Below are positions 20,264 to 62,353 of a stretch of DNA of 64,000 nucleotides, one piece after another. The position numbers and the translations under genes are program-made. The notes under the pieces were generated by a model, which was given only the letters and a program-made list of their open reading frames with translations, was not told the origin of the DNA and made no database searches. Every line of letters begins with the position of its first letter. Position 1 is the stretch's first letter. The stretch is from Microcaldota archaeon (GTDB lineage Archaea > Micrarchaeota > Micrarchaeia > Micrarchaeales > Micrarchaeaceae), in assembly GCA_021828155.1 (NCBI GenBank), contig JAKAST010000001.1, positions 1 through 64,000 on the forward strand, in the 5' to 3' direction.

Positions 20264-23098
20264 AATTTTAAGCCACCTAGGGGATGGCTTGGCTATAGCA
20301 GCGATGAAGGCCGTGGCAAGCTGCGATAAGCCCGGGGTAGCCGCAAGTCAGGCTTTGAACCCGGGATTGCCTAACAGCGCACAGCAATGTGCGAGCACAC
20401 GCGGGGAACTGAAATATCTTAGTACCCGCAGGAAAAGAAAGCGAAAGCGATGCGGCGAGTAATGCGAATGAAAGCCGCACAGGGCGAACCGAATCCCGCT
20501 TTGCAAAAGGCGTGGAGATGTGGGGCAGCGCCGATCCAGGACATGAGCCGAATGCGTTGGAAAGCGCAGTCATAGAGAGTGACAGCCTCGTAGGCTAAGT
20601 GCGATGGACCTGCTGCCGGAGAGTAATTCCGCTTGAGTATGCGGAGTGAATATGGGGGCATTAAACCCCAACCCTAAATATTGGCTATAGACCGATAGCG
20701 AACAAGTAGCGTGAGCGAAAGCTGAAAAGAACCCACACGCGTGGGAGTGAAAAGATCTGAAACTAGGTGGTTACACGAAGGTAGGGCGCGGAAGGAATGA
20801 TGTGCGCCGAAGCGCGAGTCCGAGAGGGCTTAGCGAGGCGCAAGAACCAGTGTCCTATCATTCTTCTTGAAGCAAGAGCCAGGGAGTGTATGGATGTGGC
20901 GAGCCGTAAGGCGTAGCGAAAGCGAGAGCGCGCAGCATGCGAGGCGCGAGGTATGAAAATGCCCGAGTCACACTCATACGACCCGAAGCCACTGCGAACT
21001 ACGCGCGCCCAAGGCGAAGCTAGGCTAACGCCTGGTGGAGGCCTGCAACCTGTCATGGCATGCCCTGTTGGGTGAGGCGCGGGTAGCGGCGATATACCAC
21101 TCGAGCGTGGCAATAGCGGGTCCCCTCTGAAGTATCTTTAGGATAGCTCCGGGCGAGCTTGCGCACGCGGTAGAGCGACCGATTGATGGGTACGGATCCG
21201 AAAGGGTTCACCTGTTCGTCAAACTCCGAATGCATGCGCTGCGTAGACCCCGGGAGTCGGCGGTGTTGGGTAAGCTAGCACCGCGAGACTGCAAAGATAG
21301 TGACCAAGGTTAAGGTCCCCAAATCCTAGTTAAGTGCAAGAAAAGCGAGAAGCGCCACAGACAGCTGGGAGGTAGGCTCAGAAGCAGCCATCCTTCAAAA
21401 AACGCGTAATAGCGTACCAGTTGAGGCGTTCCTTTCTGAAAATATACGGGGCTAAACTAGGTACCGAGACCCTGGAGTGCGAAAGCACTGGTAAGAGGGC
21501 GTACGGCGCGGCTGGAAGCATGCGCGAGAGCACATGTGGACCGCGCCGCAGTGAACATCCTGGTGTTAGTAATAGCATATATGGGTGAGAATCCCATACA
21601 CCGAAAGCACACGGGTTTCTTCGCAACGCTTGTCAGCGGAGAGTTAGGCGATCCTAAGCGGCGGGCCAATCACCTCGTCGCAAAAGGGAAGCTGGTTAAT
21701 ATTCCAGCCCCTAACGTGTAGGAGTGGCAACACAAGGCAGATTTCTGACGCCTGGGGACAGGTCCGCAAGAAAGTGCAAAGGGCTGTGGAGTCTCGTTAT
21801 GAGGAGAAGCAGCTAAATGAACTGTTGGACTGATTTCCTGGGCCCGTGAAAAGGGAATCTGCAACGATCACGTTAGTCCGTACCTAGAACCAGTACAGGT
21901 GTTGCTGGCTTAAAAGGCCAAGGTGTGTCGGAATAACCATGGTTAGGGAATTCGGCAAAATAGTGGCGTAAGTTTTCGACAAGCCATGTCTGCGCCTGGT
22001 AAGCGCAGATGTCACTGACAAGGGAACAACGACTGTTTATCAAAAACACAACTCACCGCAAAGCCGAAAGGCTAAGTACAGTGGGTGACGCCTGCTCACC
22101 GCCAGTACGTGAACACCCTTTTCAAGGGGGATAAGCGCTGGCAAAGAGCGGGAGTAACTCTGACTCTCTTGAGGTAGCGTAATACCTCGTCACTTAATAG
22201 GTGACTTGCATGAAGGGCGTAACGATTGTTCCACTGTCCCAACCATGGATCCGGTGAACTCACTTCGTGGTGAATATGCCACGATCCTCCAGTGGGAAAT
22301 GAAGACTCTATGAAGCTTGACTACAACCTGCTGTTGTTGTCCGGTTCGCCATACATAGCGTAAGTGGGAGCGTCGATGCGTGCGCTGCGGCGCACGCGGA
22401 GCGACAATGTAACACCACTTTTGGCTTTCCGTACAGCTCACCCGAGAGGGGACAGCTACAGGCGGGTAGTTAGACTGGACGGTTACTTTCGATAGGGAAA
22501 CGAAAGCGACCAAAGCTCTGCTTAGGCGAGTTGGAAACTCGCCGCTAAGCAAAAAGGCAAATGCAGGGCTGACTGTGCGCTGAAAAGCGTGGCGCGCAGA
22601 CTCGAAAGAGGGGCTTAACGAACGTTGGTAGCTCTTTTAATGGGGCTCCAAGCTGTCAGACAAGTTACTCTAGAGGTAACCGATTCGTCGCCGGCGAGAG
22701 TTCACATCGACCTGGCGCATTGATACAACGTTATGGGCTTGGGTTATCCTGGTGGTGCACAAGCTGCCAAGGGTTGGGCTGTACGCCCATTAAAAACCCA
22801 CATGAGCTGCGTTCAGTACGTCGCGAGACAGTACGGTAGTATCTACTGGAGGTGTTAGTGCCAGAGGATAAGACCCCCTTAATACGAGAGGAACGGGGGA
22901 TCGGCGCCACTGGTGTACCTGTTGTGAATGCATTGCAGGGTAGCTACGCGCCAAATGGATAAGTCCTGAAAGCATCTAAGGACGAAGCCAGACCCGAAAC
23001 GAGGCACTAGGGCGGCCGCAATCGACGGCTTTGATAGGAGGGGTGCGCAAGCAGGGAGCTCACGCGACCTGTGAACATTCCCTTACTAACGCCTTATT
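20264..23098 (+). rRNA. rrl: 23S ribosomal RNA
   Basis: Recognised from start to end: the 5' region (GATGGCTTGGC...GCTGCGATAAGC), the L11/GTPase centre, helix 69 at 22151-22172, the P-loop near 22475-22482, the peptidyl-transferase ring and the sarcin-ricin loop (TACGAGAGG at 22883-22891). At about 2.83 kb it has no large intron. Several universally conserved bases differ (see findings), some with compensating partners, so it seems functional rather than decayed. It has its own promoter, is not linked to 16S, and no 5S gene follows. Ends are estimates from the flanking stem. Confidence 0.95.
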
Positions 23099-54100: not shown

Positions 54101-54617
54101 TAAGTTGACAGAGTGATGTGATGACACAGAAATTGAGGTTGACCCCAAAGACAAGCTACATGCTTGGTATGTATGTGCAGGGCACTCGTGAACGCATTGG
54201 AGTAACGTCCAAGAGCGAAGAGGTGATTGAGCGCTTCGTGAAGCTCGCGATGGATGAGTTCGGCATAGAGTCGGACCACATCCTTTTCGAGCAGAACGAG
54301 GGCGCGACTACCGCCTTCTTCTACAATTCAAAGCTCAAGAGACGTTTCGACAAGGCGCTGGAAAGGAGAGAGAGGCTCTTCAAGTACAGGAACGAGTACT
54401 CGGGCAATTACATAGCAGGCATGTTCGATGTGAGCGGCGGCAAAGATAGGTTCGGCCTGTATTTTCGCAGGCTGGAGCCCACAGACGCGCTCATATTGGA
54501 GAAGCTTGGAGTACATACGACAGGCAGGGCCCGCGTGCGAGTCACACACGCAGGCGAGCTCATCACGCTTATACGTGAGTACAGCCTCGTAATGTCGAAC
54601 ATCATTCGTTGACCCGG
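54101..54617 (+). other. 16S intron 1 (LAGLIDADG-encoding)
   Basis: About 517 bases inserted near E. coli 1099-1102 (GTCCGG...TAACGAGCG). CCGGTAA occurs at both borders, so the exact cut can shift by 7 bases; GTTGAC is also repeated just inside each border. Nearly all of the intron is one reading frame. Likely spliced by the tRNA-type endonuclease at a bulge-helix-bulge. Confidence 0.88.
54121..54612 (+). CDS. LAGLIDADG family intron protein, catalytic residues lost
   Basis: 163 residues. Two LAGLIDADG-type helices are visible: SYMLGMYVQGT (12-22) and NYIAGMFDVSGG (96-107), the single-chain two-repeat design. At the position of the catalytic Asp, motif 1 has Gly21 and motif 2 Ser105, so DNA cleavage seems lost. 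It may persist as a splicing helper or be decaying. ATG 54121 is preceded by an in-frame GTG. The frame fills the intron and stops 5 bases before its 3' border. Confidence 0.8.
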   Translation: MTQKLRLTPKTSYMLGMYVQGTRERIGVTSKSEEVIERFVKLAMDEFGIESDHILFEQNEGATTAFFYNSKLKRRFDKALERRERLFKYRNEYSGNYIAGMFDVSGGKDRFGLYFRRLEPTDALILEKLGVHTTGRARVRVTHAGELITLIREYSLVMSNIIR

Positions 54618-54890: not shown

Positions 54891-55733
54891 ACTGTGACGA
54901 GCCGAAAGGCATATAGTAATCACCGTTAAATACAATAGCGGCGACTATGTGCCACCCAAACCCTTTGCAATCCTCTACGAAGAAGTAATGCAGGCACAGC
55001 GCAAACATCGCGATCTTGAGCCAGATATGCTCGTGGATTGCCCTGAGCACTTGCTTATATTCCGGTTGTCCCTTAGCATGGACCAGCGGAAATTTGCAAG
55101 AAAGCTGGGGGTAAGCCAGGGGACCATATGGGCGATAGAGAACGGATACCGAAAGCACATCAGCGCAAAAGTTGCATCTAAAATGCTTGACCTAATGGCG
55201 GCAGAAAAGATGCAGATTCCCACTGCCAAAATCCTAATGGCAAGGCGATCAGAGATTGCCATAAACGGGAGATTTGATGGGGAATATGCTAAGAGGATGG
55301 CTGATAGAGCGGCTTCAATGGAGATCGGCGTAAAGAGCGCCGTACTACAGAAACCGACAAAACAGGAAGCAGTTTTGCTAGATGAGCTGACTAGGCAAGG
55401 AATGGCCTTCCAGTTCCATGGTATAATCGAGGCCGGTAGGAAATTTGTCGTGGATTTTGTGTTTCCATCGAGCAGGTCTCCAAAGGTGGTTCTCGAAGCG
55501 AAAGATTTGCAGCTAAACTACAGGAAAAGGATGCAAGCAATAGATCTGGCATACAGAGCGCTCAAGATACGCCAAACCTACCCCCGCATCAAGCTAGTTG
55601 CGGTAATCGCCGGTGGTATACAAAATGATGCTTTAACTATACTCAAGGATGAGTATGACAAAGTCCTGCAAAATCCTTCTTCTGTAGAGGTTGCAAATAC
55701 TATAAGGGGTTTGGTCGGTTCGACAGTGTGAAT
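54891..55733 (+). other. 16S intron 2 (HTH-nuclease-encoding)
   Basis: About 843 bases inserted in the loop of helix 43 (near E. coli 1360-1365) between ATGTCACTA and TCGTGCGGTG. Border sequences ACTGT...ACAGT pair at the base of a stem, as expected for bulge-helix-bulge splicing. Borders are good to about 5 bases. Confidence 0.82.
54949..55731 (+). CDS. XRE-type HTH plus PD-(D/E)XK/Vsr-like nuclease, putative homing endonuclease
   Basis: 260 residues from GTG (or 247 from ATG 54988). Residues 34-70 form an XRE-type helix-turn-helix (MDQRKFARKLGVSQGTIWAI). A helical linker follows. Residues 137-222 look like the Vsr/DUF559/EDxHD nuclease fold: Glu140 in the first helix, then VVDFVFP (Asp169) and VVLEAK (Glu183, Lys185), followed by a helix and a hydrophobic strand (IKLVAVIAG). 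No LAGLIDADG motif. It fills intron 2, so a role in intron homing is the natural guess. AT-richer than the exons. Confidence 0.7.
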   Translation: MPPKPFAILYEEVMQAQRKHRDLEPDMLVDCPEHLLIFRLSLSMDQRKFARKLGVSQGTIWAIENGYRKHISAKVASKMLDLMAAEKMQIPTAKILMARRSEIAINGRFDGEYAKRMADRAASMEIGVKSAVLQKPTKQEAVLLDELTRQGMAFQFHGIIEAGRKFVVDFVFPSSRSPKVVLEAKDLQLNYRKRMQAIDLAYRALKIRQTYPRIKLVAVIAGGIQNDALTILKDEYDKVLQNPSSVEVANTIRGLVGSTV

Positions 55734-56000
55734 TCGTGCGGTGAATCTGTCCCCGCTCCTTGCACACACCGCCTACCAAGTCACCCAAGTGGGGTCTTAG
55801 TGAGGCAGCGCGTTTCGCGCTTTCGAACTAAGGTTCCGCGAGGAGGGCTAAGGTATAACAAGGTATCCGTAGGGGAACCTGCGGATAGATCACCTCGAAA
55901 ATATGTGTGCAAAAGCATCCTATCGGTGCCTGCATTAATCCTCAAGACTGCGTTTTTCGCTTCCCAGCGTGAGCGCTGCAAAACCTAACGCAAACGCGCC

Positions 56001-60735: not shown

Positions 60736-61605
60736 TCACGCCAGCTTCTTCTGGGGCCACCACACCTTGCACTGCTTACCAAAGAATATGCAGTAGTCAC
60801 ACTTCCATTTTTCTTCATACGGCACGGGCATCGCCTCCCGCTCGCCGTTCCAATACTTCATCGCGAACGTTATTATGCTGTTAAATTCATCGTCAGTATA
60901 TTCAAGCCTTATGGTCTTCAGGGTCTTTCCGGTGAACTGGTTTATATAGTGCAGCTGCACCGTGTTGCTCAGTTTGCCTATCTTTGTGCACTTCTCGAAG
61001 AACATGTCCGATACCGACCTTATGCTCCTCATGTCCCGGGCCACGCCAACCGCGTCGAGCTGCCTGGCGAATTCTGGCGTGAGTGAGAGCCTGTCCACGG
61101 TATAGCTCCTGCAGAAATTTGCCGAGGTGTAGAGCCCGTCGCGCAGATCCTGCAGCATCTTCCTGTAGAGCATTACCTGCACCCTGTGGGGGCGGATCTG
61201 CGGCTCGGAGAACTGGCCATTCTCTGACTTGGTCTTGTCCTCGCTGACCATTATGCCGTCATCATGAACCACGAGCTCGTCAATCTTTCCGACGAGCTTG
61301 TAGCCGTTGGCAGAGCCGTAGACCTGCACCTCACGCGTACGCTTGTTCTTGTGCAGCGCGTCCAGCGCCATGCTGTTCGTATACAGCATCTTGTACAGGT
61401 AGTCGGCATAGCTCTTGGGCTCCAACGGCACCGGCGCGTTGACCTCGTTCTCAAGTTGCTCATGCATCGAGCGCCCCTTGCGCATCTCCGCTGTAACCTT
61501 CTCCCCGACAGTGTAGCCCAATTCCATCTTGAGCTCGCACCAGTACTGCGAGGAAATGTCGGTAGCGCGTATGCTTGTCTTGTGGAGCCTCTCAAGCACG
61601 TTCAT
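60736..61605 (-). CDS. Exo5/Cas4-like PD-(D/E)XK nuclease with Fe-S cysteines
   Basis: 289 residues. GRSMHEQLE, GKIDELVV (metal Asp) and SEDKTK (Glu-x-Lys core) give the RecB-type nuclease core. Four Cys at 23, 269, 272 and 279 match the split iron-sulfur cluster site of Exo5, Cas4 and AddB. No CRISPR genes are near, so a repair exonuclease is more likely than Cas4. A C/D guide RNA fills its 5' leader. alaS follows 13 bases after the stop. Confidence 0.82.
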   Translation of the reverse strand: MNVLERLHKTSIRATDISSQYWCELKMELGYTVGEKVTAEMRKGRSMHEQLENEVNAPVPLEPKSYADYLYKMLYTNSMALDALHKNKRTREVQVYGSANGYKLVGKIDELVVHDDGIMVSEDKTKSENGQFSEPQIRPHRVQVMLYRKMLQDLRDGLYTSANFCRSYTVDRLSLTPEFARQLDAVGVARDMRSIRSVSDMFFEKCTKIGKLSNTVQLHYINQFTGKTLKTIRLEYTDDEFNSIITFAMKYWNGEREAMPVPYEEKWKCDYCIFFGKQCKVWWPQKKLA

Positions 61606-61606
61606 A

Positions 61607-61667
61607 AATCAGCCCGCCTACTTATCGTCATAGCGAAACGCTCAGCGATTACCTCACTCATCACGAG
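61607..61667 (-). ncRNA. Box C/D guide RNA in the Exo5-like gene leader
   Basis: On the minus strand: C GTGATGA (61658-61664), 12-base guide, D' CTGA (61642-61645), 10-base spacer, C' ATGACGA (61625-61631, one mismatch), 12-base guide, D CTGA (61609-61612). The D guide pairs 8 bases with 16S CCGCCTAC (55769-55776), with C55772 at N+5, equal to E. coli C1402. The match includes the three bases unique to this 16S. The D' guide has no firm target here. The D box ends 3 bases before the Exo5-like ATG. Confidence 0.8.
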
Positions 61668-61685
61668 GCTAATGCGCATCATGCG

Positions 61686-61693
61686 TATAAATA
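61686..61693 (-). promoter_or_regulatory. TATA box for C/D RNA and Exo5-like gene
   Basis: Read on the minus strand as tatttata, centred about 26 bases before the C box, so transcription starts at the guide RNA, just as in the histone leader. Confidence 0.65.
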
Positions 61694-61720
61694 GGTTTTG
61701 ACGGGCTTTCTCCATGCAGG

Positions 61721-62353
61721 CTATCTCTTCATGTACTTGACGGCCACCTTGTACACAACGTAGAGCACTATGGCAAACACACCTATCGCAGTTAGCGTTA
61801 TGACAGCGTTGTTGGTGGAGAGCGCCTTCATGCCGAAGACTATCAACACAGCGTCCCAGATGGCTGCTCCAAGTGCCGAATACCCAAAAAATTTCTTCTG
61901 GTTCATTCGTGCGAACCCTGCAGGGAAGCTCATTATTGTCCTTATCACGGGCACGAGCCTCGAGAGGAAAACCGCTGCGAAGCCGTTGCGTGCGAACCAT
62001 GCATCGAAGGCGTCGAGCCGCTCTTGCGTCACATGGAAGAGCCTAAGGTGCTTGTATACTACGTCCTTTCCTATGAAGTATCCTATGTAATAATCTACGG
62101 CCAGGCCGCCTATGCTGCCCAGCAGCGCCGCGAGGTACACCAGTACGAAATTTAGGGTTCCGTTCGCGATGAATATCCCGGCAAGCGGCAGCACCACCTC
62201 GCTCGGAACTGGCACAGTTGAGCCTTCCAGCAGCATGAGCACGAATATGGCTATGTAGCCATACTGGACTATAAGCGCGTGTATAGTGGCATACGCATTG
62301 GTGAAAAGCGATGCGAATAATCCTAATGTTACATAATCCAGCATTTTGAACAC
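61721..62353 (-). CDS. DedA/SNARE-associated family membrane protein
   Basis: 210 residues, five or six membrane segments. EGSTVPVPSEVVLPLAG and FLSRLVPVIRTIMSFPAGFARM (in parts) are the DedA marks, with the conserved Glu and Arg. Related proteins flip polyprenyl- or phospholipids and support proton-dependent homeostasis. Confidence 0.88.
   Translation of the reverse strand: MFKMLDYVTLGLFASLFTNAYATIHALIVQYGYIAIFVLMLLEGSTVPVPSEVVLPLAGIFIANGTLNFVLVYLAALLGSIGGLAVDYYIGYFIGKDVVYKHLRLFHVTQERLDAFDAWFARNGFAAVFLSRLVPVIRTIMSFPAGFARMNQKKFFGYSALGAAIWDAVLIVFGMKALSTNNAVITLTAIGVFAIVLYVVYKVAVKYMKR

Follow-up and report, generated by a model that had tools for sequence, protein, structure and literature searches.

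The 5' leader of a nuclease gene in a 64,000-nucleotide stretch of DNA from a Micrarchaeota archaeon (hereafter the window) raises the question of whether this leader is itself a guide RNA gene and, if so, which part of the ribosome it serves. An earlier sequence-only reading of the window had described canonical C, D', C' and D boxes with 12-base guides here, and this description was borne out: judged from its sequence, the RNA encoded at 61609-61664 on the minus strand is an archaeal box C/D sRNA of the canonical double-guide type. Read 5' to 3' on the minus strand from 61664 to 61609, it has the order GTGATGA-GTGAGGTAATCG-CTGA-GCGTTTCGCT-ATGACGA-TAAGTAGGCGGG-CTGA. Box C (61658-61664) contains a TGATGA that is invariant among 23 host-family homologues, and is followed by the 12-nt D' guide (61646-61657), box D' (CTGA, 61642-61645, supported by the sequence and the alignment), a D'-C' loop (61632-61641) whose length differs between genomes by non-multiples of three, box C' (61625-61631, with a conserved TGANGA), the 12-nt D guide (61613-61624) and a box D (61609-61612) that is invariant in the alignment. 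The RNA thus shows the terminal RUGAUGA and CUGA boxes, the internal C' and D' boxes and the two 12-nt spacers of archaeal C/D sRNAs, and displays nearly every testable property of the double-guide family. No known Rfam family scored above its threshold; the best was RF01139 (sR2, a Pyrococcus C/D RNA; 21.5 bits versus a gathering score of 42), which resembles the present RNA in its boxes but not in its guides. A fibrillarin gene is also present in the host genome (G000:C7:19243-19875, E=1.2e-75).

The D guide points to the decoding site of 16S rRNA. The previously reported match was reproduced: eight contiguous pairs are formed with CCGCCTAC at 55769-55776, corresponding to 16S 1399-1406 (CCGCCUAC), and N+5 falls on C1402 (55772). 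The whole target strip, 16S 1398-1407 (ACCGCCUACC), lies at 55768-55777 on the plus strand. The true 3' end of the 16S gene, at about 55735-55896, is located beyond two introns, and the Rfam 16S model ends early, at 54979. These introns (about 54113-54612 and 54893-55735) each apparently encode a nuclease-like protein, and the second one, which stops just upstream of the decoding strip, misleads the Rfam model. The host strip carries U1404, A1405 and C1406, facing AAGGTATAACAAGG (G1495, U1496 and A1497) within the 3' strand of helix 44 (AAGGUAUAACAAGG, 1492-1505; 55850-55863, plus strand). Because U1404-A1497, A1405-U1496 and C1406-G1495 are all Watson-Crick pairs, the altered helix is compensated. 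These three bases had been considered special to this organism; they are indeed altered, but several genera share the same state, in both of the order's families.

The alteration of helix 44, whose usual state includes U1406·U1495, is clade-wide. The pairs 1404-1497, 1405-1496 and 1406-1495 vary jointly across the order's two families (UAC/GUA, UGC/GCA, CGC/GCG and UGU/UCA), with C1406-G1495 replacing U1406-U1495 in most genera. Wherever both strands were read, 1495-1497 matched the 1404-1406 state, including the states rarer than these four, and most outgroup families have the standard strip ACCGCCCGUC. C1400 is the base stacked under the P-site anticodon; position 1400 is U in genera g10, g19, g26, g25 and g45 and in genomes G244, G269 and G271.

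The RNA is widely distributed among relatives. A sequence-only model built from the 23 host-family homologues (R1) matched 67 of the 85 genomes of the host family and 137 of the 164 genomes of the order, and a second model (R2), with matches taken at E up to 0.001 and some of them weak or half, matched 57 of 74 additional genomes from the class. In an exact-pattern scan of one genome per GTDB species, 97 stretches were found; the 80 matches listed were all archaeal and mostly labelled Micrarchaeota, and among them were Ca. Micrarchaeum A_DKE, Ca. Mancarchaeum and Ca. Fermentimicrarchaeum. Micrarchaeota are tiny, acid-loving archaea. The model search gave no confident match in any genome of genera g7 and g15, so the RNA is probably dispensable there. 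The insert between D' and C' is unusually long in six f4 genomes (G185, G192, G198, G201, G202 and G206), where about 60-150 bases separate the C-D' half from the C'-D half. Of the two model matches in G146, one appears to derive from a contaminating G012-like genome.

Within a single genome, the match of the D guide to 16S is unremarkable, since 58 of 400 shuffled guides reached at least eight contiguous Watson-Crick pairs through N+5 in 16S plus 23S (p~0.15); the case therefore rests on comparison. The homologous RNA was compared with its own 16S strip (1398-1407) in 85 genomes from 62 genera, arranged in 67 genus-level rows with 670 guide-strip positions. The results showed that the guide follows the strip: 577 of the 670 pairs were formed, versus 542.9 +/- 3.9 when guides were shuffled over all rows and 566.4 +/- 1.8 when they were shuffled within families, and none of 20,000 shuffles of either kind reached 577, in tests that leave some shared ancestry in. 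Conservation and covariation together raise the D-guide match, through N+5, far above chance. Genus-level Fisher tests located the signal at 1400 (p=2e-4), 1404 (p=2.5e-10) and 1406 (p=2.6e-14). Guides facing U1404 always have A7 (30 genera), and those with G7 always face C1404; likewise, U1406 is always matched by A9 (28 genera), and C1406 in most cases by G9. U1400 is found with A3 in five genera (three of the host family and two of distant families) and in one genus with G3. The switch at 1404 can be seen even inside genus g4, in which G030 and G080 combine C1404 with G7 (guide GCGGG opposite strip CCCGCC), and G082-G088 combine U1404 with A7 (GCAGG or GTAGG opposite CCUGCC). At 1405, guide position 8 is U whether the genome has A1405 or G1405 (A-U or G-U); this position is uninformative because U pairs with both A and G, and the change to A1405 needed no change in the guide. 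The proposal that guide and target changed together holds over the 62 genera, with the joint changes seen at 1400, 1404 and 1406.

The correspondence has exceptions. The g26 guide GGTAGGCAGG, which carries A3, was first seen without a 16S in its assembly, and U1400 was then found in G089. As the sole predictor of U1400, A3 was nevertheless rejected, since the f2 genera g31, g32 and g41 have A3 with C1400; including these three, A3 stands opposite C1400 in five genera, and A7 stands opposite C1404 in nine. The 16S tree implies at least five changes at 1400 and at least five at guide position 3, with too few well-supported pairs for significance on a tree that is poorly resolved and leaves independent sign tests underpowered. 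At the methylation position itself, G5 pairs with C1402 in 52 genera, and A5 is opposite C1402 in ten, among them the Ca. Fermentimicrarchaeum-type genomes with the A5 guide GACGGACGAC. In G003 the D guide is unrelated. Full complementarity over guide positions 2-10 is found in a minority (19 of the 85 genomes); most D guides carry one mismatch, and its location differs between lineages. We infer from this single roaming mismatch that selection favours a releasable duplex.

The earlier reading had missed the second guide. The D' guide complements the 3' tail of 16S, namely the anti-Shine-Dalgarno stretch 1530-1538 (GATCACCTC), which lies within AGAUCACCUC (1529-1538) at 55887-55896 on the plus strand. 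In the host genome there is one mismatch, an A-C placed exactly at N+5, C1533 (55891); the D' guide thus lacks a productive N+5, a property not required of every family member. In most f2 and outgroup homologues, the D' guide is AGGTGATC, the exact complement of the tail GATCACCT, again with N+5 on C1533, and this tail is unchanged in nearly every genome read. The host family mostly has GAGGTAATC, which complements 1530-1538 except for A opposite C1533; in three of its genera the mismatch is at C1535 instead. Half-productive double guides are known, N+5 being mismatched in 16 of 262 (Dennis et al. 2015, PMC4644070). Across all genomes in which both guides were read, every D guide with A5 is accompanied by a D' guide with G5, and every D' guide with A5 by a D guide with G5. 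In addition, nearly every Micrarchaeota genome read has GGAUAGAUCACCUC as its tail (55883-55896 in the window), in place of the usual GGCUGGAUCACCUCC.

The computed architecture, promoter, conservation, strip covariation, tail complementarity and fibrillarin gene point to an RNA that would be expressed, assembled into an RNP and used for methylation, and that may also act as a chaperone. It is quite likely, in our judgement, that this double-guide C/D sRNA, conserved across the Micrarchaeota class, acts on the 3' end of 16S by directing Cm1402 and clamping the tail. The sRNA would be transcribed as the Exo5 mRNA leader from its own TATA box, with a start near box C, and would presumably be released in an RNP containing L7Ae, Nop5 and fibrillarin. 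Its D guide would bind the helix 44 decoding strand (1398-1407) and set fibrillarin on C1402, which predicts Cm1402 in the host organism. Its D' guide would bind the anti-Shine-Dalgarno tail, where the mismatch at C1533 probably permits binding without methylation. Holding both 16S segments during 30S assembly is a likely second role. Under this scheme, the guide would have stayed complementary as the strip changed (C1404U, G1405A, U1406C and, in places, C1400U).

How much of this function is methylation is less clear-cut. With A5 opposite C1402 in ten genera, Cm1402 cannot be assumed clade-wide, and pairing looks more conserved than methylation. The RNP could then be an assembly chaperone only, which clamps the decoding strand and the tail during 30S maturation with little or no methylation, the C1402 methyl being incidental. 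Flanking pairing is kept where N+5 is mismatched, both in the D guide of those ten genera and in most host-family D' guides, and Dennis et al. propose chaperone roles and report double guides with a mismatched N+5 (PMC4644070). However, the 52 genera with G5 argue against a purely structural role, as does the observation that no genome with both guides read has an N+5 mismatch in each of them, as though one productive site at least had to be kept; we regard the chaperone-only explanation as rather unlikely. A related possibility, which we put forward tentatively and rate slightly higher, is that the RNP works as a proofreading or holding clamp that keeps the decoding strand and the anti-Shine-Dalgarno tail jointly sequestered until late 30S maturation. 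The movable mismatch would allow release, and selection on the clamp may have driven the coevolution of guide and site, N+5 methylation having come and gone.

Another explanation concerns the D' guide alone, which in the host family might have been retargeted from the 16S tail to the flank of the 23S P-loop (CGGUUACUUU, 22480-22489). In the host genome this site offers ten continuous pairs, three of them G-U, and an A5-U at N+5. The pairing includes many G-U pairs, however, and is broken in G029, G011, G034 and G028, and the AGGTGATC guide of most f2 and outgroup genomes cleanly targets the tail. The flank was rejected as the host-family D' target, being weaker than the tail and broken in several genera, and retargeting appears improbable. 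The P-loop itself is unusual in these archaea: at 22474-22481 it reads CUGGACGG in most of the host family and CUGGGCGG in the sister family, both one base shorter than the usual CUGGGGCGG. The shortened stretch adjoins the bases involved in pairing with the tRNA CCA end.

The reading of the RNA as a 16S-directed double guide also has to be reconciled with its position in front of a protein gene. Box D is followed by TTT and then by the ATG at 61605 of an Exo5-family PD-(D/E)XK nuclease gene (60736-61605, minus strand; PF09810, E=2.6e-42), of which the sRNA is the 5' leader. The claim that the RNA makes up the whole of this leader extends to most host-family genomes, whose Exo5 leaders carry it with near-invariant boxes and guides. 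The TATA box claimed upstream of box C proved real: TATTTATA lies at 61686-61693 on the minus strand, 22-29 bases before box C, with a BRE-like AAAA upstream of it (61696-61699). When 25 host-family leaders were aligned on box C, positions -29 to -25 were 100% A/T, -35/-34 were mostly AA (BRE-like) and an A/T-rich patch was found at -11 to -8, a pattern from which transcription would be expected to begin near box C.

An entire leader consisting of this RNA would also suit a k-turn switch, in which L7Ae bound to box C/D controls translation of Exo5 and the guides are incidental; leader k-turns are reported to let L7Ae regulate some archaeal mRNAs (PMC5539422, PMC6298567). Such a switch does not account for guides that are conserved and track 16S. 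Of 60 relatives, 58 have the Exo5 gene. The RNA is retained in G020, a genome with no Exo5 match at all, and the outgroup sRNA loci checked have no Exo5 match nearby. These observations indicate that the RNA is independent of Exo5; the gene is probably a host transcript outside the sRNA function, and the switch seems very improbable. A short coding frame (MMSEVIAERFAMTISRRADL) instead of an RNA gene can be dismissed almost entirely, since, though open through the RNA in the window (ORF 61602-62000), it is broken in close relatives by the frame-breaking loop lengths, with boxes and guides intact.

As a 16S-directed double guide, the RNA shares with the archaeal double-guide C/D sRNAs (sR families; PMC4644070, PMC7994747) the same C, D', C' and D boxes and 12-nt guides, and likewise aims both guides at nearby sites in one rRNA. 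Overlap with the 5' end of an ORF, as in the present leader, is known but uncommon among archaeal C/D genes (7% in six archaea; PMC7994747). The target pair of 1398-1407 plus the anti-Shine-Dalgarno tail is absent from the text of a seven-species survey, in which helix 44 predictions are sparse and the equivalents of A1408 and G1494 are named, but not that of C1402 (PMC4644070). The present RNA also differs in its class-wide conservation, since archaeal guides are described as fast-evolving. The eukaryotic snR70/U43 C/D snoRNAs have the same C1402-equivalent target as the D guide, and in this respect the present RNA would work like them; their gene context is unlike that of the present RNA. 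We know of no tail-targeting second guide in snR70/U43. The corresponding modifications are yeast 18S Cm1639, guided by snR70 (PMC8307265), and Arabidopsis Cm1645, guided by AtU43 (PMC11542601). In bacteria, the 2'-O-methyl predicted here is made by RsmI, which together with RsmH yields m4Cm1402 and is a stand-alone protein enzyme with no guide RNA (PMC7694415). In a comparison table of C1402-equivalent methylation, the archaeal entry is blank (PMC11542601). On its sequence features, we place the RNA as an archaeal double-guide C/D sRNA with an unusual target pair and an unusually clear coevolution record.

Ca. Micrarchaeum harzensis A_DKE, which belongs to this clade and carries the homologous leader on NZ_CP060530, is grown in co-culture, and RNA-seq data of the co-culture are public (PMC8975820; SAMN15702898, SAMN15702859). 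The sRNA predicts an archaeal counterpart of the C1402 2'-O-methyl, which is protein-made in bacteria and RNA-guided in eukaryotes. It also provides a class-wide record of a guide tracking its target through changes in a stretch that is among the best conserved in any ribosome, which runs counter to the view that archaeal guides turn over fast. Finally, the lineages with matched and mismatched N+5 constitute a natural experiment that separates methylation from chaperoning.
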